This document shows positions 40,404 to 53,666 of a DNA stretch of 64,000 bases, piece after piece. Origin of the DNA: Candidatus Obscuribacterales bacterium. GTDB taxonomy: Bacteria > Cyanobacteriota > Vampirovibrionia > Obscuribacterales > Obscuribacteraceae. Numbering within the stretch: the first letter of the stretch is position 1; each line of letters opens with the position of its first letter. Below the pieces are notes generated by a model. It was not told where the DNA came from. It was given only the letters and a program-made list of their open reading frames with translations, and did not search any database. The DNA is taken from positions 62,001 through 126,000 of the forward strand of contig JAGVKG010000046.1 of the NCBI GenBank assembly GCA_020050685.1. The letters run 5' to 3'. The position numbers and the translations under genes were made by a program.

Positions 40404-41534
40404 CTATTGATCCGTACCGCCGCCCGTGGCTCCCATCGGTTGTGATGTGCCTGGATCAGTTGGTTGTTCAACTTCTGCCGTTATCCTAAACGGACCGCTT
40501 TGCTTTGCGGTAATTTTAACTTTCGATGTGTGTCCAGGTTTTGCTGGTTGTGCCGATTCCGGCTCAACATCGTTGTCGTATGATTTCATATACATTCCCT
40601 GATCGCCCTTGTCCGGAGAACTTTTCATTGGCGCTGGCTGAACTTGATTTTTCAGGCCGGTTGCTTTTGGAAAGAAAAGAATATTTGGTATTTCCGTGCC
40701 ACCAGGCCCGTGACGGTGCCCCTCACCGGCTGCGTTAGAAATTGCCTTGCCATTCGGTCCATAAATGTGTGTGCCCATATTCGTAGTATTAACAATCTTG
40801 TTTCCGTTCGGATCCGTTATGACAGTCGCGCTGCCACCACCTTTGGTTTGTTGCCCTTCGCTGATGGTTGTTTTCGATCCGGTATTTGGATCCGTATAAG
40901 TATATGTTGTCACCGGCATGCCACCATTTGTGTACGGATCCACGTTCGTATTGTGTGTAAGGTTGGGAATCGAATCAAGTCCTGGACTAAATCCATCGTT
41001 AGGATTCCAGTTAAACCACGGTGTTTGCGTCATCCGACCATAAGGATCAACTGCAAAATTTCCCACACCGGGTAGGGTGTAAGCTGATCCGCCGCCCTCA
41101 TTGGTAATGGCGTTTATACCGTTGAGCAAGTTCTGAATAATCGTGTGACCATCCGACCCTTTGCCGTTTGGTTTGACAGTCATCACATTGCCATTCGGGT
41201 CCATATAGCGAATTGAGCCATCGCCTGCTCGGTAAGCGTCAGAACCATTGGGCAGTGTTACCGGTTGACCTTTCTTTGGCGGCGGTTCCGGTGATGCCGG
41301 AGCTACACTCGGCTGCGGCTTGGGTGGTGCCTTCACCGTTTTTATCGAACCATCGTCCTGGATATAGTGCCTATTGCCCTGGTCATCTTCGGTATAACTT
41401 GGCTGGCTATCATCCTCAGCAAAGCTGGGCAAACCCAACGTGAATGTGAAGGACAAAAGACAAGCTGTTGTGACCAACACTAGCTTTCCTGGAATTTCGC
41501 TCTGCGAAACTTGCTTTCTGATTGTCTTGCTCAT
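40404..41534 (-). CDS. Hypothetical secreted Asp/Pro/Asn/Gly-repeat protein
   Basis: A protein of about 376 residues with a signal peptide (KLVLVTTACLLSFTFTLGLP then SFAED). The mature part is low-complexity, dominated by short turns with D/G-P-N-G words: DPNGNVMTV, VDPYGRMTQ, TDPNTGSKTT, DPNGNKIVN and GPNGKAISN, at irregular intervals of roughly 15-30 residues. The C-terminus is Pro/Thr-rich. Such repeats resemble YD/RHS-like or calcium-binding turns, but no defined family is recognised. ATG 41534 is preferred over GTG 41546. It follows the kinase operon on the same strand, 120 bases beyond. Confidence 0.65.
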   Translation of the reverse strand: MSKTIRKQVSQSEIPGKLVLVTTACLLSFTFTLGLPSFAEDDSQPSYTEDDQGNRHYIQDDGSIKTVKAPPKPQPSVAPASPEPPPKKGQPVTLPNGSDAYRAGDGSIRYMDPNGNVMTVKPNGKGSDGHTIIQNLLNGINAITNEGGGSAYTLPGVGNFAVDPYGRMTQTPWFNWNPNDGFSPGLDSIPNLTHNTNVDPYTNGGMPVTTYTYTDPNTGSKTTISEGQQTKGGGSATVITDPNGNKIVNTTNMGTHIYGPNGKAISNAAGEGHRHGPGGTEIPNILFFPKATGLKNQVQPAPMKSSPDKGDQGMYMKSYDNDVEPESAQPAKPGHTSKVKITAKQSGPFRITAEVEQPTDPGTSQPMGATGGGTDQ

Positions 41535-41653
41535 AACCGCCCCCACTTCCTTGAGAAGATAAAGCCATCACTCGATATACCCACGGATATGCCTTTAGCT
41601 GCCATTGCCAAAGATATGTAAAGATAAAATATGGGCTAGGTCTGTCTTCACGA

Positions 41654-43516
41654 TTAAGGCGCCCTTAAGGCATCTAGCATTGTTCGTAAGGTAGCGGCGG
41701 TCAGGCTGCCTGCCTGACGTTGGCTAGATACTTGTTGAGCTGCATTCAAGTATTTGCCCGCCTCTGAATAGATTTGTTGATCCTGATAGGATTCACCAAT
41801 TCGATTGAGCGACTGGTAAGAAAGAGAATGATAGTATTGCGGGTCTTGGGCGTAATGTTCGGGGCAAATTTCAAGGATTCTCCAATAGAATGATCTTGCT
41901 TGGTCATATTGGTCTGTGCGTAAATATGATTCGGCAATTCTCCAATTTTGTTGCGCCTGAGATTTGGCATCCGCCTCGATTTGAACTGCCGATTTTATGC
42001 GCTGTTCACTTTGGGTACTTGGTGCTTCTGATGGCGTACTCGTCGTTGCGGATTGTGCAACACGAAAAATAAATGTGGCCGCCAGGATGATAAGAACGAC
42101 ATTTAGCACTGTAACTGTTGCATCGTGTGAGCCGCGAGTGGATCCCATCTCTGCCCAAGGAGAATTTATAATCCACGCAAAGGCACCGAAGAACAAAAAT
42201 GGAAAGAGCCATGCTGGCCATGTCGCAAAAAGCAAGGTAAGCGTGGGGACGATCGCATTGAAGATTGGAAGGAGAATTGCAACAGAAATGGGCCCAAATA
42301 GTATCAGACCCAAAATCACTACTAAGAGAGTATTTCGCAAACCAAGAAATGCACCTGCCCGTTGAATTGCGTTGGCGATAGCTGACCAAACCGAAGCTGA
42401 TCCAGTCGAGCTGGATCCAGAGTGAGATGGTTGGATAGAAGGATTCAATAACGGTGAGTAAAGTCGCTTGGAATATTTGGGAGGCGTTGCCTGCTGCCGC
42501 TGATTGAATATCGGTTGTGGTGAGGAAACTTGTGGAGTATGAATCCAGTCAGGCAAGTTGCTCCACTCAGGCAGTTCCGCAAGATCGACGGGATCTGCCG
42601 GATTGGCATCAAGATCCGGCACTGCCTCAATGGAAAATCCGAGAAAGGATCGCAATAGTCTTGCAAGCTTTCTGATCTCAGATGATTGGTGGTGCTCAAG
42701 AATTGAAAATGCGCGAGAATGTGTTGGGTCAGTTAAATCATGCTGGCGAAAGAGGAGACACTCATCGCCGCCTTTCAATTGCTTCCATAAAGCTGGATCG
42801 ATGCTCAAACAAATCAAACATGTATAAACTAACCAACCGGGAAAGTTGTCCAAATACAAACCAAAATGATCTTTTGTTCGCCCTGGATGTTGGTAATTGC
42901 GGTGACCCAGTTCATTGCTAACATGACCGGCGAGCGCTGGCACGTACATTCCGTCGTAATCGACGAGTTCAAAATTCTTATTGTCGATGAGAATGTTGCC
43001 GTGCTGCAAGTCACAATGAGCGATACCACTGGCCTTCAGATCGCGCAACATGTCTTTCCAGCGATCGGCAGTATCACGAAGTACTGCTGGATTGTGTAAG
43101 TTATGATCGATGAATTGATCGAGCTGCTGACCTTCCGCCCATTCCATTTTTAGAATCGGAAAACGTTGACCATGCACTTGCAGCCCGTCTACGATGTAAT
43201 CAAAACCAACAGTAAATGGCAGCTTCGATGCAACTATATGATCTTCAATCTTTTCATAACGCTCATGCTGATCAGGAAAGTTGCGCAAAAAGCAACGCAC
43301 GGCCCAATCACGGTCCTTGCAATTCATGCGATAGACAGATGCAAACGCACCAGTCATTGGCTTTGGCAGACCCAATGTTGTGAGCGCCGGTTTGCCCGAC
43401 ACCAATTCCGGATCAGAAAAACTAAGTTTTGGATTTTGCAACGCCTCATTGTAATCCTGCGGTGTGGGCCAGGATACTAGTTTGTAGGTAATTGTCTGCT
43501 TAGCTATGTCTTCCAT
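41654..43516 (-). CDS. YegI-type atypical protein kinase with membrane and TPR-like C-terminus, copy 1
   Basis: A 620-residue protein. The kinase domain (about residues 45-300) has a Gly-loop TGAFASVY, strand-3 AVRCFLR with Arg where kinases normally have Lys, catalytic loop HCDLQHGN, and DYDG in place of DFG. These features match the YegI-like family (COG4248). A Pro/Ser-rich linker leads to two or three membrane helices (about 400-500), then TPR-like helices (QNWRIAESYLRTDQYDQAR and following). The first catalytic-loop position after His is Cys, where copies 2 and 3 have Gly. It is the last of three tandem paralogues; its ATG lies 25 bases after the previous stop. Confidence 0.85.
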   Translation of the reverse strand: MEDIAKQTITYKLVSWPTPQDYNEALQNPKLSFSDPELVSGKPALTTLGLPKPMTGAFASVYRMNCKDRDWAVRCFLRNFPDQHERYEKIEDHIVASKLPFTVGFDYIVDGLQVHGQRFPILKMEWAEGQQLDQFIDHNLHNPAVLRDTADRWKDMLRDLKASGIAHCDLQHGNILIDNKNFELVDYDGMYVPALAGHVSNELGHRNYQHPGRTKDHFGLYLDNFPGWLVYTCLICLSIDPALWKQLKGGDECLLFRQHDLTDPTHSRAFSILEHHQSSEIRKLARLLRSFLGFSIEAVPDLDANPADPVDLAELPEWSNLPDWIHTPQVSSPQPIFNQRQQATPPKYSKRLYSPLLNPSIQPSHSGSSSTGSASVWSAIANAIQRAGAFLGLRNTLLVVILGLILFGPISVAILLPIFNAIVPTLTLLFATWPAWLFPFLFFGAFAWIINSPWAEMGSTRGSHDATVTVLNVVLIILAATFIFRVAQSATTSTPSEAPSTQSEQRIKSAVQIEADAKSQAQQNWRIAESYLRTDQYDQARSFYWRILEICPEHYAQDPQYYHSLSYQSLNRIGESYQDQQIYSEAGKYLNAAQQVSSQRQAGSLTAATLRTMLDALRAP

Positions 43517-43541
43517 TACTTTTGTGTCTTAATTCTTGCTG

Positions 43542-45566
43542 CTAAGGCAAGGAGAATAAATTAGGCAAAATGAACAAATCTTTCTCCGCTAAGTTTCCAG
43601 AGTCGAATAAGCGAACCAACTCAGTGGACTTATTGAGATATTTGCTCGCCATCTTTTTGTTACCAGCTCTCTGATAGCATTCTCCTATCGTGTTTAATGT
43701 TTTGGTGATTTGCGGAAAATATGCATTTGGATCGAATTTATAATTCGCTACATATTTAGAAAGCGCTTGTTTGTAGAGTTGGATTGCATCGCTATAATTT
43801 CCCGTTGTTTCAATCTGTTTGGCTATGCTCAGACTTTGTTCCGCTACTGCGTCATTGTGAGTTTTGATTTCGTTCTCTGTTTCGACAACTATATCGGTCG
43901 TGTTTTTCATAGATGTATTGAATTGAGCGGTAGCGGCAATAAAGATAGCAAGCACCAGTGTTAATGCTACTACCAGGAAAGATAGCAATTTTGTTTGCAG
44001 CGGAGTCGCTTGCTGCCCTGAAGTCTGAGAGCCCATTGATGGCCAATAGCGAATCGCATAATACAAAGCAATAGGAATTGCGGCAAATGCATACATCCAC
44101 AATGGCCACGACCAATCCCAGCCCATTGCTGTGAGCAGCGGGGCAAGCTCATTGCTGAGATAGTGGAAAAGTGTAAGCAGCGTCATTGGAATCCAAATAA
44201 TTGCCAGAATCAAAGCCAAGGCAATGTCGACAGGACCAAGGTTCCAGTACTTCATGAATGCCTGAATGGACGAGCTGATTGTCCTTTGCGATGGATGGAC
44301 ATATCCTGATTTTGGCGGCGGCCAAGTGGCTTGTTTGCTTGGCGGAGCGGTTTGCAAAAACTGGCTCAGTATCGGATTCATCTTGGATTTAGTCGGCGGC
44401 GCGCTGGCTTGCGCAGGTTGTCCTTGTGATTGACCAAATGTGCCTTTAGGTGGAGGCCAGGTTGCTCGCTTGGATGTGTTCGCCGAATTCGTTTGATATG
44501 ACCCCGGTTGAGAATTTTGCGATGTTGGTGCATTGGTCATCCATGATGGAAAATTATTATTGAATCCTCCTGTGATAGGGTGTGCTTCTGCGTTTTCTGC
44601 GAGCAGGTCTGTCCATTTGGGAATTGCCGGAAGGATTTTTGGATCGGCCGGATTGGCATCAAGATTTGGTATGTTCTCTACTTTCTGCGAGAGAAAGGAA
44701 CGAATCAAACGCGATAGACGCTGAACCTCGGGAGACTTGTGGTGTTCGAGAAATGAAAATGTAACGGAGTGCATTGGGTCTTTGAGATCCTGCTGGCGAA
44801 AGAGCAAACATTCATCGCCGCCCTGGAGATCTCTCCACAAACTAGGATCAATGCTAAGTATCTTTAAACAGACATAAATCAGCCAGCCGGGGAAATTATC
44901 GAGGTACAAGCCGAAATGATCTTTGGTGCGCCCCGGGTGCTGATAATTGCGATGACCGAGCTCGTTGCTTTCCATTCCTGCGAGCGCCGGCACGTACATT
45001 CCATCGTAATCGACAAGTTCAAAATTCTTGTTATCCACCAGCACATTGCCATGTTGTAGGTCGCCATGGGCAATACCACCTTCTCGCAATTTGCCCAACA
45101 TTTCCTTCCAAGCTTCTGCTGTCTCACCGATCAATTTGGGGTTGTGCAAATTGTGAGCAATAAATTGATCCAGATGCTGTCCTTCAGCCCATTCCATTTT
45201 CAGAATCGGGTAACGTGTACCCTGCAGCAGCAGTCCATCCTCAACGTAATCGAACCCCACAGTGAACGGCAGTTTTGCTGCAATTATATGTTCTTCAATT
45301 TTGTTGTAACGATCATGTTGATCCGGAAAGTTGCGCAAAAAACAACGCACTGCCCAATCGCGATTTTTGCAATGCATACGATAAACAGAAGCAAATGCCC
45401 CGGTCATCGGTTTGGGAAGACCAAGCGGCGTGAGAGCCGGCTTGCCTGCCGCGAGCTCCGGATCGCTAAAGCTGAGTTTGGGATTTTGTAACGCTTCGTT
45501 ATAGTCCTGCGGCGTGGGCCAGGACACTAGCTTGTAATTTATGGCTTGTTTGACGGTGTCTGCCAT
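43542..45566 (-). CDS. YegI-type atypical protein kinase with membrane and TPR-like C-terminus, copy 2
   Basis: A 674-residue paralogue of the other two. The kinase domain is the same in order: TGAFASVY, AVRCFLRNFPD, HGDLQHGN and DYDGMYVPAL, followed by GHRNYQHPGR. The linker (about residues 310-440) is the longest of the three and contains the word ATWPPPK twice, a local duplication of a Pro/Trp motif. Membrane helices cover about residues 445-570 and a TPR-like region follows (AIQLYKQALSKYVANYKFDP). The C-terminus is in a periplasmic or cytoplasmic position that cannot be fixed. Between copies, the linker and membrane parts differ far more than the kinase domains. Confidence 0.87.
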   Translation of the reverse strand: MADTVKQAINYKLVSWPTPQDYNEALQNPKLSFSDPELAAGKPALTPLGLPKPMTGAFASVYRMHCKNRDWAVRCFLRNFPDQHDRYNKIEEHIIAAKLPFTVGFDYVEDGLLLQGTRYPILKMEWAEGQHLDQFIAHNLHNPKLIGETAEAWKEMLGKLREGGIAHGDLQHGNVLVDNKNFELVDYDGMYVPALAGMESNELGHRNYQHPGRTKDHFGLYLDNFPGWLIYVCLKILSIDPSLWRDLQGGDECLLFRQQDLKDPMHSVTFSFLEHHKSPEVQRLSRLIRSFLSQKVENIPNLDANPADPKILPAIPKWTDLLAENAEAHPITGGFNNNFPSWMTNAPTSQNSQPGSYQTNSANTSKRATWPPPKGTFGQSQGQPAQASAPPTKSKMNPILSQFLQTAPPSKQATWPPPKSGYVHPSQRTISSSIQAFMKYWNLGPVDIALALILAIIWIPMTLLTLFHYLSNELAPLLTAMGWDWSWPLWMYAFAAIPIALYYAIRYWPSMGSQTSGQQATPLQTKLLSFLVVALTLVLAIFIAATAQFNTSMKNTTDIVVETENEIKTHNDAVAEQSLSIAKQIETTGNYSDAIQLYKQALSKYVANYKFDPNAYFPQITKTLNTIGECYQRAGNKKMASKYLNKSTELVRLFDSGNLAEKDLFILPNLFSLP

Positions 45567-45589
45567 GAGTTGTGTGTCCAGTGGTGGTT

Positions 45590-47404
45590 CTAGGGCAATA
45601 AGAAAATATCTTTATCTGTTAACTTTCCAGAGTCGCGCAAATGAACCAGTTGTGTTGACTTGGAAAGATATTTGTTTGCCATCTGTGTATTTCCTTGTCG
45701 TTGATAGGTTTCTCCGAGGGCATTGAGTGTTTTGATTATCTTGGGAAAATAGGTGTTCGGATCTTTAGAATAGTTTTTTACGTATTTAGCAAGGCCTTGC
45801 CTATAAATCCCAGCCGCTGACCCATAATCGCCGCGTTTTGCGCACTCATTTGCGAAGGAACAAAATTCCTCAGCGGCTCTATCGTTGCTTAGCCTAAGCG
45901 GATCTAGATACTGGGGTGCGGACGTGTTTAAATTGCCACCAGAGATGATGAAGAATAGTGGTGCCATCACAATTGCCGCACCAATTACAACTTGCCAAAT
46001 TACTTGATTTGTTGTTGCTGTATGGCTGGAAGAACTCGAAGACAAAGTTTTTGATGCAACAAAAAGTCCAGCCACAATTATTGAAAGTCCAAATAGCCAT
46101 ATTGGCCATGACCATTCCCAGGCTATCGCAGTTAGCAGTGGCGCGAGTGCGTTGCGAACATTACCGATGACGTCGCTTGCCACTATAATCCCATTTTGTA
46201 GCATCCAGACCATCCAGAAAATTGCAAGAAGGCAAGCTGGGAGCAGTTCACTGGGGCCGATCTTCCCAAACTTTCCCGTTGTTGGTTGTCCGCCACTGCC
46301 ATAATATGGTGGCGGCCAATTAACTTGACTCGAATATTGCGAAGGTTTGGGTGAATATGAAGATTGGGATTGTCCAAATGATTGAGCGTTCACCCAAGGT
46401 GGTTGATTTGCCGATGGTTGTTCTGTCTCAAGCTGAGCTCGAAGCTGATCCCAGGGCAGGACGGCTGGAAGACCTTGCGGATCTGCGACACTAGCATCGA
46501 GATTTGGCACATCGTCTACTTCGCTTCGCAAGAACGAGCGAAGCTGACGCGATAGCTTCTGAATCTCAGGCGATTTATGATGTTCTAAGAACGAAAATGC
46601 TTTTGAATGTAGAGGGTCCTTCAGATCCAGCTGCCGGAAAAGCAGACATTCATCACCGCCTTGGAGGTCTTTCCACAAAGTAGGATCGAGGCTCAGGATT
46701 TTGAGCGAAACATAGATCAGCCAGCCGGGAAAGTTATCGAGATATAAACCAAAGTGATCTTTGGTGCGACCTGGATGCTGGTAATTGCGGTGGCCAAGCT
46801 CGTTGCTGCCCATGCCCTCAAGTGCCGGCACGTACATTCCATCGTAATCGACAAGTTCGAACGTTTTGTTATCCACTAGCACATTGCCATGTTGCAGGTC
46901 GCCATGCGCGATACCATTTTCTCGCAACTTGCCCAACATTTCCTTCCACGCATCTGCCGTTTCGCTGAGTAATTTAGGATTGTGCAAGTTGTGTACAATA
47001 AATTGGTCGAGATGTTGGCCCTCGGCCCATTCCATTTTGAGTATCGGATAATGTTCACTGTGCAGGCGCAAGCCATCTTCGATGTAATCGAATCCAACGG
47101 TGAATGGCAGTTTGGCTGCAAGTATATGCTCTTCAATTTTGTTGTAGCGATCATGTTGGTCCGGAAAGTTGCGCAAGAAGCAACGCACTGCCCAATCGCG
47201 ATTTTTGCAATGCATACGATAAACAGAAGCAAATGCCCCTGTCATCGGTTTGGGAAGACCAAGCGGCGTGAGAGCCGGCTTGCCTGCCGCGAGCTCCGGA
47301 TCGCTAAAGCTTTGTTTGGGATTTTGTAACGCTTCGTTATAGTCCTGGGGCGTGGGCCAGGACACGAGCTTGACTTGAAGGGCTGATTTGATGTCTTGCT
47401 TCAC
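45590..47404 (-). CDS. YegI-type atypical protein kinase with membrane and TPR-like C-terminus, copy 3 (operon head)
   Basis: A 604-residue paralogue, promoter-proximal in the three-gene unit. Kinase motifs are TGAFASVY, AVRCFLRNFPD, HGDLQHGN and DYDGMYVPAL. The linker is short, with VNWPPPYYG; membrane helices lie near residues 380-460 and 465-510, followed by a helical repeat (AGIYRQGLAKYVKNYSKDPN). The start codon is GTG at 47404 with only a weak AAAGA ahead, and a perfect palindrome TTCGACGGTCGAA sits seven bases upstream. Kinase-domain identity with copy 2 is very high, suggesting recent duplication or gene conversion. Confidence 0.87.
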   Translation of the reverse strand: MKQDIKSALQVKLVSWPTPQDYNEALQNPKQSFSDPELAAGKPALTPLGLPKPMTGAFASVYRMHCKNRDWAVRCFLRNFPDQHDRYNKIEEHILAAKLPFTVGFDYIEDGLRLHSEHYPILKMEWAEGQHLDQFIVHNLHNPKLLSETADAWKEMLGKLRENGIAHGDLQHGNVLVDNKTFELVDYDGMYVPALEGMGSNELGHRNYQHPGRTKDHFGLYLDNFPGWLIYVSLKILSLDPTLWKDLQGGDECLLFRQLDLKDPLHSKAFSFLEHHKSPEIQKLSRQLRSFLRSEVDDVPNLDASVADPQGLPAVLPWDQLRAQLETEQPSANQPPWVNAQSFGQSQSSYSPKPSQYSSQVNWPPPYYGSGGQPTTGKFGKIGPSELLPACLLAIFWMVWMLQNGIIVASDVIGNVRNALAPLLTAIAWEWSWPIWLFGLSIIVAGLFVASKTLSSSSSSHTATTNQVIWQVVIGAAIVMAPLFFIISGGNLNTSAPQYLDPLRLSNDRAAEEFCSFANECAKRGDYGSAAGIYRQGLAKYVKNYSKDPNTYFPKIIKTLNALGETYQRQGNTQMANKYLSKSTQLVHLRDSGKLTDKDIFLLP

Positions 47405-47546
47405 AATCTTTTCGACGGTCGAATTTTAAGGGTTAAAAAATCTGTCAAACTTGGTACTAATGTCTAAGAGACTAATATTGTAATTTTTCCCGGTAAGTCC
47501 TCATTTCAAGCTTTAGAGTTAAGCATTTAAGATTGGAGTCTGCCCG
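47405..47546. promoter_or_regulatory. Divergent promoter region between kinase and vWA/phosphatase arms
   Basis: The 142-base gap holds a perfect palindrome TTCGACGGTCGAA (47411-47423), and a symmetric element at 47456-47476 in which ACTAAT repeats flank GTCT-AAG-AGAC. For the plus-strand gene, GGAG lies before the ATG at 47547. The dyads lie where a shared regulator could control both arms; no regulator gene is nearby. Confidence 0.45.
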
Positions 47547-48389
47547 ATGTCGTATGTCGCCGAAATCAGCCGTGCTAATCCGTCCTGCATTTTCTTGGTT
47601 ATCGATCAATCAGGCTCTATGGAAGACCCGTTTGGCTCCGGTAATGCCGGCAAGAAAAAGGCCGAAGGGCTTTCCGATGCCGTCAATCGGCTGTTGCAAA
47701 ACTTAGTGATTAAGTGCGCCAAGTCCGAAGGAATTCGCGATTATTATCACGTGGGGGTTTTGGGCTATTCCGGCAATGGAGTTTCGCCGGCTTTCGTTGG
47801 CCCGCTTGCCGGACGTGAACTCGTAACAATATCTGACATTGGCAATTCACCGGCGCGTGTCGAAGCCAGAGTTAAAAAAGTGGATGACGGCGCTGGTGGA
47901 ATAATGAACCAGAACATTAAATTCCCGGTTTGGGTTGATCCGGTCTCGACCGGAGGCACTCCCATGTGTGATGCGTTGAGACGAACGAAGGACATTCTTG
48001 CCGAATGGCTTTCCCACCATCCTAATTGTTATCCGCCCATTGTAATGAACATTACCGATGGCGAATCAACCGATGGTGACCCATCTTTTATGGCGGACCA
48101 GATTAAGAGCATGTATTCATCAGACGGCAACATCCTGCTTTTCAATTTGCACATCTCATCGTCGCAACACAAACCAATTGAATATGCCTCCAGCGATTAC
48201 GATTTGCCCGATAGTTACGCCAAGTTGTTATTCCATATGTCCAGCCCGCTGCCAGATCATATGTGGGTGATGGTACAGGAAGAGGGACTTGCCTTGGAGG
48301 ATAGTCCGCGCGGTTTTGTTTTCAATGCCGACTTGGTATCAGTAATTCGCTTTTTGGATATCGGTACTCGCCCGAGTAATTTGCGTTAG
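47547..48389 (+). CDS. TerY/YegL-like vWA domain protein
   Basis: A 280-residue cytoplasmic vWA protein. The metal-ion site is intact: DQSGSM near residue 23, Thr in GGTPM, and Asp in ITDGES. It resembles TerY (COG4245) and E. coli YegL. In known loci, such a protein scaffolds a kinase and a PP2C phosphatase; here the PP2C gene follows 63 bases downstream and the YegI-type kinases are divergent. It is therefore the probable scaffold of this signalling unit (inference). Confidence 0.87.
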   Translation: MSYVAEISRANPSCIFLVIDQSGSMEDPFGSGNAGKKKAEGLSDAVNRLLQNLVIKCAKSEGIRDYYHVGVLGYSGNGVSPAFVGPLAGRELVTISDIGNSPARVEARVKKVDDGAGGIMNQNIKFPVWVDPVSTGGTPMCDALRRTKDILAEWLSHHPNCYPPIVMNITDGESTDGDPSFMADQIKSMYSSDGNILLFNLHISSSQHKPIEYASSDYDLPDSYAKLLFHMSSPLPDHMWVMVQEEGLALEDSPRGFVFNADLVSVIRFLDIGTRPSNLR

Positions 48390-48452
48390 TTTGCCGAACT
48401 GAATTGTAATTTTTGAAATAGGAAATGTGACAGGCGATATGGCAGGCGAGAC

Positions 48453-49208
48453 ATGAATATTGATTGGCAAGTGTTCTGGCTGCAAAAGGCCGGCTCCAGT
48501 AAAGAAGAATACGAAGATGCTTTTTCGCCCAAGGCTTTGATTCGTCAGCCCAAGGAAACATTTCGTTGTTCAGTTGCCGATGGTGCGACCGAAACATCTT
48601 TTTCCGGGCTATGGGCGCAAATGCTGGCCGATAGTTATGTGAAAGAAGGACCAAGCTTAGCGGAAATGCAGCAAGCTTGGCAAAATCAAATTTCGAATAA
48701 GGAACTTGCTTGGTATGCTGAAGAGAAAGCGGAAAGTGGTGCCTTCGCTGCTTATGTCGGGCTTACCTTATATCGCAAGTCCGGGAAGAAGGGTAAGTCG
48801 CGCTCGTGGGAAGCGCGCGCGCTTGGTGACAGTTGTCTTTTTCAAATTCGCAAGGCAGAGATTATTGCTGCCGTGCCGCTCGATAGTTGGCACCAATTCA
48901 ATTCCAGCCCTGCATTGATTTCTTCAAACCCGGCCCGAAACAAAGGCATAGAAGAGAATCTTGTGCAAGCTGATGGCACCTGGCGCGATGGTGACATTTT
49001 CTATTTGATGAGTGATGCGATTTCATGTTGGTTCTTGCGCCGCCAGGAAGAACATGGTGATGCAATTGAATGGCTGGAAAGAATTGACGATCAAACTAAA
49101 CTTGAAAGTTTGGTTTCCGAGCAAAGAGAAATTGCCGACGAAGATGGTCGCAGAATGATGCGCAACGATGATGTCACCTTGATGCGAATTTGCCCTACGT
49201 ACGATTAG
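48453..49208 (+). CDS. PP2C-family serine/threonine phosphatase (PphC-like)
   Basis: A 251-residue cytoplasmic phosphatase. PP2C metal-binding aspartates appear in order: EDAF near residue 22, SVADGATET (39-48), ALGDSCLF (near 122), YLMSDAIS (near 188) and NDDVTLM at the C-terminus. Length and motif order match the divergent PphC group paired with YegI and TerY/YegL. It should dephosphorylate the kinases or their targets. GGCGAG precedes the ATG. Transcribed with the vWA gene. Confidence 0.85.
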   Translation: MNIDWQVFWLQKAGSSKEEYEDAFSPKALIRQPKETFRCSVADGATETSFSGLWAQMLADSYVKEGPSLAEMQQAWQNQISNKELAWYAEEKAESGAFAAYVGLTLYRKSGKKGKSRSWEARALGDSCLFQIRKAEIIAAVPLDSWHQFNSSPALISSNPARNKGIEENLVQADGTWRDGDIFYLMSDAISCWFLRRQEEHGDAIEWLERIDDQTKLESLVSEQREIADEDGRRMMRNDDVTLMRICPTYD

Positions 49209-52139: not shown

Positions 52140-53666
52140 TTATTCAGGATAGGAACGGCTCTTGCGCAACGTATCCCAAATATCTGCCTTTGGTACTTCC
52201 AGCTTTTCTTGAGTTGGGGATGCTTGTTCTTTTGGCTTTTCTTCAACGCTTGGTGCTGCTTGTGCGGCTTTAGAGATTCGATGCTTCGGCTTTGGCAATG
52301 GGCTAGGAGAAACTGCTGCGGTGGGCGATTTTGTCAGGCTCAGCTTATTACTATCTTGTTTGATTGGCTCAACCGGTGGTGCCGGTGTGATGGCAGTTGG
52401 TACTTTCTGTTGTACTGGTTTGATTTCGCCTTGTGGTGGAGTTTCGCCTGATTGTGCCGGCAGCTCTTTTGGTACTGACCTTGTGCCACTGGGCTCGTGT
52501 TGGGTGGTGTAAAACCAAGCATAGCCCAATCCAACTACGATAATCACCGCAATTACTGCTGCAAATAATTTGGCCGGAATCTGTTCCGGCATTGCAGCCT
52601 CAGATGGTTTGGTGGCGCCGGCTGTCGCCGCGCTTGAAGTCGGTTGCTTTGGCACCATGGCGCGCAGTTGCTGACTCTTGGACGGAGTAGGAATGGAAAA
52701 TTGCAGTTCTTGTTTTAGTTCGGTCATCGACTGTTGGCGATTCTTCGGATCCTTTTCCAACGCCTTGAATACGACTTTCTCAATGCGTTCCGGAATGTAT
52801 AAATCCGGACGAATAACAGAAAATGGTTTAGCTGATTCCGTCAAGTGTTTGTTCATGGTATCAACCATGGTATTACCAAGCAAAGGCAATTCGCCGGTAA
52901 TTGATTCGTAAATCATCACACCCATGGAGTAGATATCAGATCGTGCATCGAGCTTGTGTCCCATGCATTGCTCCGGGCTCATATAAATAGGACTGCCGCA
53001 GACTTCACCCGTTTGTGTCAGTCTTTGTGATTCTTCACCGGAAAATGGAATCAGTTTGGCAACGCCGAAGTCTACAATTTTGACAAAGTCTTTTTCGTCT
53101 TCCGTCTCAATCAACATGATATTGCTGGGCTTAAGATCTCGGTGTACGATGCCCTGTTCATGCGCATGTGCCAAGGCATCACAGGCTTGTGCAAATATTT
53201 TTACGGAACGATCGACGCCCACTTTCCCATCTTTTTTTATGATTGCATCCAGACCCATGCCTTCGATGTAGTCCATTACAATATACGGCTGCCCATTGGG
53301 CGACATGCCAAAGTCGTGAATCGTAATTACATGAGGATGGCTAAGCCTTGACGCTGCTTTTGCTTCTTGCCGGAATCTGCGAATAGCATTACCGTCGCGC
53401 ACGTGTTGTGATTGCAGCATCTTAATTGCGACAAAACGATCCATTGTGTCGTGCTTGGCTTTGTAGACGACACCCATGCCACCATGCCCAATGACGGACA
53501 GTATCTTATAATGCTCGGCAAGCAAGGTGCCAACCAACGGGTCGTGCACCTCTGCTATCAAATTTGCACCATCAAAGGGACATTTTGCCAGCGTGTCATC
53601 AAACTCACGATGGCAGAGGACGCATCGCAGCTTATTGCCCATAATTTTGATGTCATCAGCCGCCAC
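52140..53666 (-). CDS. Hanks-type serine/threonine protein kinase
   Basis: A 508-residue membrane protein. An N-terminal zinc-ribbon-like stretch has CVLC and CPFDG (Cys15, 18, 29). The kinase domain has all main motifs: GHGGMGVVY, VAIKML with the strand-3 Lys, HRDLKPSN, DFGVAKL and SPEQCMG. A membrane helix (near residue 370) separates it from a Pro/Thr/Lys-rich C-terminal tail (positions about 395-500). It is distinct from the YegI-type kinases. The start is GTG 53666, or ATG 53642 (MGNKLRC). It is followed on the same strand by no obvious partner and converges on htrA. Confidence 0.9.
   Translation of the reverse strand: MAADDIKIMGNKLRCVLCHREFDDTLAKCPFDGANLIAEVHDPLVGTLLAEHYKILSVIGHGGMGVVYKAKHDTMDRFVAIKMLQSQHVRDGNAIRRFRQEAKAASRLSHPHVITIHDFGMSPNGQPYIVMDYIEGMGLDAIIKKDGKVGVDRSVKIFAQACDALAHAHEQGIVHRDLKPSNIMLIETEDEKDFVKIVDFGVAKLIPFSGEESQRLTQTGEVCGSPIYMSPEQCMGHKLDARSDIYSMGVMIYESITGELPLLGNTMVDTMNKHLTESAKPFSVIRPDLYIPERIEKVVFKALEKDPKNRQQSMTELKQELQFSIPTPSKSQQLRAMVPKQPTSSAATAGATKPSEAAMPEQIPAKLFAAVIAVIIVVGLGYAWFYTTQHEPSGTRSVPKELPAQSGETPPQGEIKPVQQKVPTAITPAPPVEPIKQDSNKLSLTKSPTAAVSPSPLPKPKHRISKAAQAAPSVEEKPKEQASPTQEKLEVPKADIWDTLRKSRSYPE

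Follow-up and report, generated by a model that had tools for sequence, protein, structure and literature searches.

The window analysed here is a 64,000-nucleotide stretch of an assembly whose nearest named relatives are Candidatus Obscuribacterales / Melainabacteria. At its positions 41654-49208 the open reading frame calls place five genes, three tandem kinase genes on the minus strand (K1, K2 and K3; 41654-47404) lying divergent from a TerY gene and a PP2C phosphatase gene on the plus strand (47547-49208; Table 1). The kinase genes are separated by 25 bp (K1/K2) and 23 bp (K2/K3), and a consensus scan of the divergent region detected no credible promoter or terminator, the single weak site lying within K3. 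The assembly is 4.2 Mb in size, with completeness of 98.7% and contamination of 3.0%, and an assembly-wide search for STK_OB kinases and TerY recovered K1, K2 and K3 only, together with a single TerY. The initial annotation had described the kinase as triplicated, and there are indeed three adjacent STK_OB genes on one contig. Because this contig extends over 172 kb and the synonymous sites of K1 are saturated relative to those of K2 and K3, the triplication is real and not an assembly artefact. The same saturation points to an old duplication, so that, judged by their substitutions, the three kinases are old paralogues.

The gene immediately downstream of K1, which has the same orientation, encodes a Pro/Gly-rich protein of 380 aa that looks secreted (40404-41546); it had no Pfam match and no homologue adjoining the related triads. 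A canonical PknB-like kinase with a TM segment is encoded approximately 3 kb from the triad (52140-53666), near recF-like and ribF-like genes.

Table 1. Positions in the window of the triad genes, their domains and other features
Feature	Position	Strand	Details
K1, TerY-P family Ser/Thr kinase	41654..43516	-	620 aa; linker, 3 hydrophobic helices, TPR-like tail
K2, TerY-P family Ser/Thr kinase	43542..45566	-	674 aa; long linker, 3 hydrophobic helices, TPR-like tail
K3, TerY-P family Ser/Thr kinase	45590..47404	-	604 aa, GTG start; linker, 3 hydrophobic helices, TPR-like tail
Divergent intergenic region, K3 to TerY	47405..47546	.	142 bp
TerY-like vWA protein	47547..48389	+	280 aa; MIDAS intact (DQSGS; T138; D171)
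PP2C phosphatase	48453..49208	+	251 aa; metal-site acidic residues conserved (D22, D43, D126, D188, D239/D240)
K1 kinase domain	42602..43483	-	residues 12-305
K2 kinase domain	44652..45533	-	residues 12-305
K3 kinase domain	46490..47371	-	residues 12-305; also in AlphaFold2 model
K1 linker Trp motif, PDWI	42542..42553	-	residues 322-325; candidate docking site, putative function
K2 linker Trp motif, PSWM	44538..44549	-	residues 340-343; candidate docking site, putative function
K3 linker Trp motif, PPWV	46391..46402	-	residues 335-338; candidate docking site, putative function
K1 membrane helices	42065..42328	-	residues 397-484; hydropathy
K2 membrane helices	43932..44225	-	residues 448-545; hydropathy
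K3 membrane helices	45944..46237	-	residues 390-487; hydropathy and model
K1 TPR-like tail	41666..41941	-	residues 526-617; Pfam TPR 1.6e-5, below cut-off
K2 TPR-like tail	43617..43871	-	residues 566-650; Pfam TPR 1.8e-5, below cut-off
K3 TPR-like tail	45632..45886	-	residues 507-591; two helical hairpins, pLDDT above 92 (AlphaFold2)
K2 side of K2/K3 gene-conversion-like tract	45408..45506	-	codons 21-53; permutation p = 0.00025
K3 side of K2/K3 gene-conversion-like tract	47246..47344	-	codons 21-53; permutation p = 0.00025

Component families and domain architecture

The assignment of the locus to the TerY-P type, made at the outset, is supported by matches to all three PADLOC component models, STK_OB, TerY and PP2C. 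The TerY protein matched over its full length (4e-111) and retains the DxSxS, T and D residues of the MIDAS, and the phosphatase matched at 5.7e-30, its PP2C fold being confirmed by a predicted structure (pLDDT 94.1) for which Foldseek returned PBCP, PstP and tPphA. Matches of the kinases to STK_OB (K1, 2.6e-73; K2, 2.7e-77; K3, 1.2e-78) cover the kinase half of the model, with alignments ending at model position 290-301 of 562 and the OB half missing. Ten TerY-linked kinases from elsewhere likewise match in the kinase half only, and this OB half is therefore not a defining feature of the family. No OB or zinc-ribbon tail was found on the window kinases, as seen from the half match to STK_OB, the lack of a Pfam zinc ribbon, and the helices and two TPR-like hairpins of K3.

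The initial annotation had also called the kinases YegI-type and the phosphatase PphC-like, and neither label survived direct comparison with the proteins of E. coli K-12. K3 matched YegI with E = 0.31, YegI itself being unmatched by the STK_OB model; the PP2C protein matched PphC with E = 0.49; and TerY gave a weak vWA match to YegL (E = 5e-4; TerY model against YegL, 0.032). Membership of the YegI-PphC-YegL set was rejected for want of significant kinase or phosphatase similarity. The kinases thus lie outside YegI, which refutes the YegI half of the initial reading by the criterion set there; the vWA and PP2C proteins nevertheless belong to TerY-P families, and the proposed linkage of kinase, vWA and PP2C genes proved to be conserved across phyla. 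According to PMC13232886, YegI is an atypical kinase that is bound to the membrane and from which PphC removes phosphate, and the E. coli kinase, PP2C and vWA genes share a locus as they do in the window, but the YegI tail differs from the window tails. Given these similarity values, the E. coli set is to be regarded as an analogue drawn from the same three superfamilies but a different subfamily.

Pfam kinase matches of K1-K3 all fell under the cut-off, and we therefore regard their family of kinases as a divergent one. In its AlphaFold2 model, K3 has a confident kinase domain whose Foldseek matches are protein kinases, including kinase folds in the PDB; a sequence search against solved structures returned nothing informative. 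Each of the three copies retains an intact glycine loop together with catalytic Asp169, Asn174 and metal-site Asp186, and K1 carries HCD at the position of HGD in K2 and K3. At the beta-3 (VAIK) site all three have Arg in place of Lys, a family trait found in 43/57 kinases of other phyla and 23/25 orphan kinases, that is, kinases without a TerY in the retrieved locus. Lack of a conserved alpha-C Glu is likewise family-wide, and Lys123 is near-invariant across the family, as are the catalytic Asp, the Asn and the metal-site Asp. From these residues K1-K3 are likely to be catalytically active, although atypical.

Each kinase domain is joined to the membrane helices by a linker, modelled as disordered at residues 339-382 of K3, and this linker carries a short tryptophan motif. 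In kinases of other phyla the motif takes the form W-h-x-[DE]-[HYF]-h (34/52, often twice, against 0.05 expected after shuffling), and in the Obscuribacterales the form P-x-W-h (18/33, against 0.8 expected). Within the Obscuribacterales family one or other form was found in 17/29 TerY-linked kinases and 2/21 orphan kinases (Fisher p = 0.0004, a value that overstates independence, as the counted sequences are related); the motif is missing from some TerY-linked clades. It is a reasonable candidate for a site that binds TerY or PP2C.

Beyond the linker, the K3 model places helices at 384-494, and the tails that follow resemble TPR repeats, each individually under the Pfam cut-off in K1, K2 and K3. 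Where the tail is of the TPR type, the number of hydrophobic helices preceding it is one or three, and the basic residues mostly lie towards the kinase; there are three helices in K1-K3, a single helix in related TPR-type kinases (with the exception of one, at locus L085, that apparently has two) and mostly two in HhH-type kinases. This difference between odd and even helix number, taken from hydropathy and charge, suggests that TPR tails are located outside the cytoplasm and HhH tails inside it.

Divergence of the copies and distribution of the triad

The first reading of the locus held that the kinase domains are near-constant and the linkers, membrane helices and tails differ, and the identities among K1-K3 agree with this: 78, 78 and 88% for the kinase domains against 29, 29 and 43% for the tails. 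Correspondingly, dN among the window copies is 0.08-0.16 in the kinase domain and 0.55-1.0 in the tails. Eight tandem pairs, taken from the window, four related genomes and a planctomycete, show the same contrast, with identities of 61-89% in the kinase domain and 26-43% in the tail. In a quick tree, tandem copies cluster with their own neighbours (window trio, 100; L082, 100; L084, 100; L058, 93; L057, 84), and this grouping within each genome indicates that the kinase was duplicated in tandem more than once or that the copies changed in concert. Between K2 and K3 there is an unbroken stretch of 18 polymorphic synonymous codons that are identical (columns 21-53; permutation p = 0.00025), which is consistent with a recent gene-conversion-like tract in this pair only. 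The divergence of the tails could result from relaxed constraint rather than specialisation.

TerY was present in 30/50 genomes searched from the family to which the window belongs. In other phyla the usual layout is TerY-PP2C-kinase on a single strand with one kinase, some kinases having HhH tails and one PEGA and WD40; in the Obscuribacterales, the tail consists of a membrane helix and TPR, and the kinase has been duplicated in tandem repeatedly. Three layouts were seen in the Obscuribacterales family. In the first, one or more kinases are divergent from TerY-PP2C; the window has three such kinases, G020 and G021 have two each, G038 has at least two, and other genomes have one. In the second, a double-kinase fusion is encoded divergently from TerY, and in the third two or three kinases come after TerY-PP2C without a change of strand. 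The combination of adjacent multiple kinases with vWA and PP2C genes, for which the initial annotation had suggested a search, is therefore recurrent in the Obscuribacterales, and outside the family, among the 80 loci retrieved, it was found in a planctomycete (L135, two adjacent kinases). No non-kinase neighbour in the window recurs beside related triads, the only homologues elsewhere being generic kinase, HtrA-like and MFS proteins.

Proposed working of the locus and its alternatives

Set beside the defence-form TerY-P triad (Gao et al., 2020; PADLOC STK_OB, TerY and PP2C), the window has the same three families in adjacent genes, but its kinases lack the OB half and carry membrane helices and a TPR tail, there are three of them, and TerY-PP2C is divergent from them. 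The zinc-ribbon-kinase triad (Anantharaman et al., 2012; CoCoNuT-associated, PMC11090510) shares the linkage of vWA, PP2C and Ser/Thr kinase genes; in the window, neither a zinc ribbon nor ter or restriction genes were found nearby. Single-kinase TerY-PP2C-kinase operons of Paenibacillus, Chloroflexota, Planctomycetota and others have the same kinase clade, membrane helices and linker Trp motif as the window, but usually one kinase, on the same strand, with two helices and in some cases HhH or WD40 tails. Membrane anchoring of the kinase is itself not new, because a TM-fused kinase beside PP2C and standalone vWA genes has already been noted in actinobacterial GAP1-N2 systems (PMC7159879); the associated genes differ there, and the accessible portion of that paper does not describe a TPR tail or kinase triplication. 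As far as the accessible literature goes, the TPR-tailed, multiplied-kinase form of TerY-P appears to be new.

Our working model starts from what can be read directly from the sequences, namely family membership, gene layout, catalytic residues, conservation of the kinase against divergence of the tail, and recurrence in relatives. We propose, giving it about an even chance of being correct, that one TerY-PP2C pair is fed by three receptor-like kinases with different tails. The kinase of a TerY-P triad would thereby have expanded into a small receptor-like family, whose members share one kind of cytoplasmic catalytic domain and have a Trp motif in a disordered linker, membrane helices in odd number and a TPR tail, probably extracytoplasmic. 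Each tail would detect signals or protein partners of its own, and K1-K3 would all act on, and be reset by, one shared TerY vWA adaptor and PP2C phosphatase. This model presumes the membrane topology, the role of the tails as sensors, docking through the Trp motif, the sharing of a single TerY and a single PP2C by K1-K3, and the direction in which the signal passes. That several kinases work with one phosphatase and one scaffold had already been proposed in the initial annotation; we infer the same, and the patterns of copy number and tails favour it.

The main rival, which we regard as rather doubtful, is a role in defence against phages similar to that of the TerY-P system of Gao et al. (2020), in which extra kinase copies would widen the detection of phage proteins. 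All three component types match PADLOC defence models, TerY-P protected P. aeruginosa against Autographiviridae (PMC10889362) and was reported to be active against T7-like phages (PMC7699616), and rapid tail divergence around a conserved enzyme core would fit an arms race. However, the OB half of the defence model has no counterpart in K1-K3, no dedicated defence system was found among the ten nearest flanking genes (which gave only generic kinase, RecF-type ATPase and protease matches), the recF-like and ribF-like neighbours are housekeeping genes, and TerD was not found in the whole assembly.

Neutral tandem duplication, which we consider quite unlikely, would leave redundant copies with drifting tails, while purifying selection, and gene conversion now and then, would preserve the likeness of the kinase domains. 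Such a process would accommodate the K2/K3 conversion-like tract and the variation of kinase copy number within one genus (one in G031, two in G021), yet the copies are old and all three retain catalytic residues, linker Trp motif, odd helix number and TPR-like tails, and the contrast between conserved kinase and divergent tail recurs in independent lineages. It is very improbable that K1-K3 are pseudokinase scaffolds that bind but do not phosphorylate, as the Arg at the VAIK position and the lack of a conserved alpha-C Glu might indicate, since both traits are family-wide, the family hardly varies at the catalytic Asp, the Asn and the metal-site Asp, the locus also encodes a PP2C, and YegI, another atypical kinase described as without conserved motifs, autophosphorylates (cited in PMC13232886).

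The receptor-kinase model matters since most of what is known of TerY-P concerns triads that have one kinase, are linked to defence and work by an unclear mechanism. A lineage that repeatedly multiplies the kinase and varies only its tail separates a conserved output from a variable input. It thereby opens to experiment which part of the kinase is recognised by TerY and PP2C, the linker Trp motif being a concrete candidate, and whether TerY-P also has a role in ordinary cell-surface signalling.

The wider kinase family and variant loci

Two related genomes contain many more kinases of this type, with 64 (G028) and 36 (G010) STK_OB matches at E below 0.001, approximately two thirds of them strong and some of them fragments, and three TerY each. 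Orphan kinases carry TPR, Sel1 or DUF3592 tails. A more general hypothesis, which we put forward as unlikely, is that in the Obscuribacterales the TerY-P kinase domain serves as a general receptor-kinase platform. Only one to three TerY-PP2C pairs would then serve the tandem copies at TerY loci and also the dispersed copies, of which some genomes have dozens, with tails such as TPR, Sel1 or DUF3592; the pair-specific kinases would dock through the linker Trp motif. If true, this would constitute a many-kinases-to-one-phosphatase network, which has not been described for TerY-P in the accessible literature.

Several variants were encountered among the retrieved loci. In several Obscuribacterales a canonical Pkinase follows TerY-PP2C in place of a TerY-P kinase, at L056, L062, L064, L111, L113, L119, L125, L175 and L176; an N-terminal Clp_N domain was present on 3/3 tested canonical Pkinase proteins adjoining TerY-PP2C, and the kinase slot of the triad is apparently swappable. 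Two orphan TerY-P-type kinases, L188 (1405 aa) and L187 (1197 aa), are fused to long TPR arrays or approximately 20 Sel1 repeats. Fused double-kinase proteins lie beside TerY at L054, L065, L068, L072, L083, L087, L171 and L181-L184, the second domain being more divergent and having Lys at the beta-3 site. At L066, L067, L069 and L070, where TerY-PP2C and two or three kinases share a strand, the TM-bearing kinase has altered catalytic-loop residues and may be a pseudokinase. A TerY-like domain with a degenerate MIDAS forms the C-terminus of a 1133-aa protein (L076:9025-12426), and PP2C proteins with a long C-terminal extension are encoded approximately 3-4 kb from TerY at three loci (L073:13576-15486, L170:8473-10389 and L172:4645-6426).
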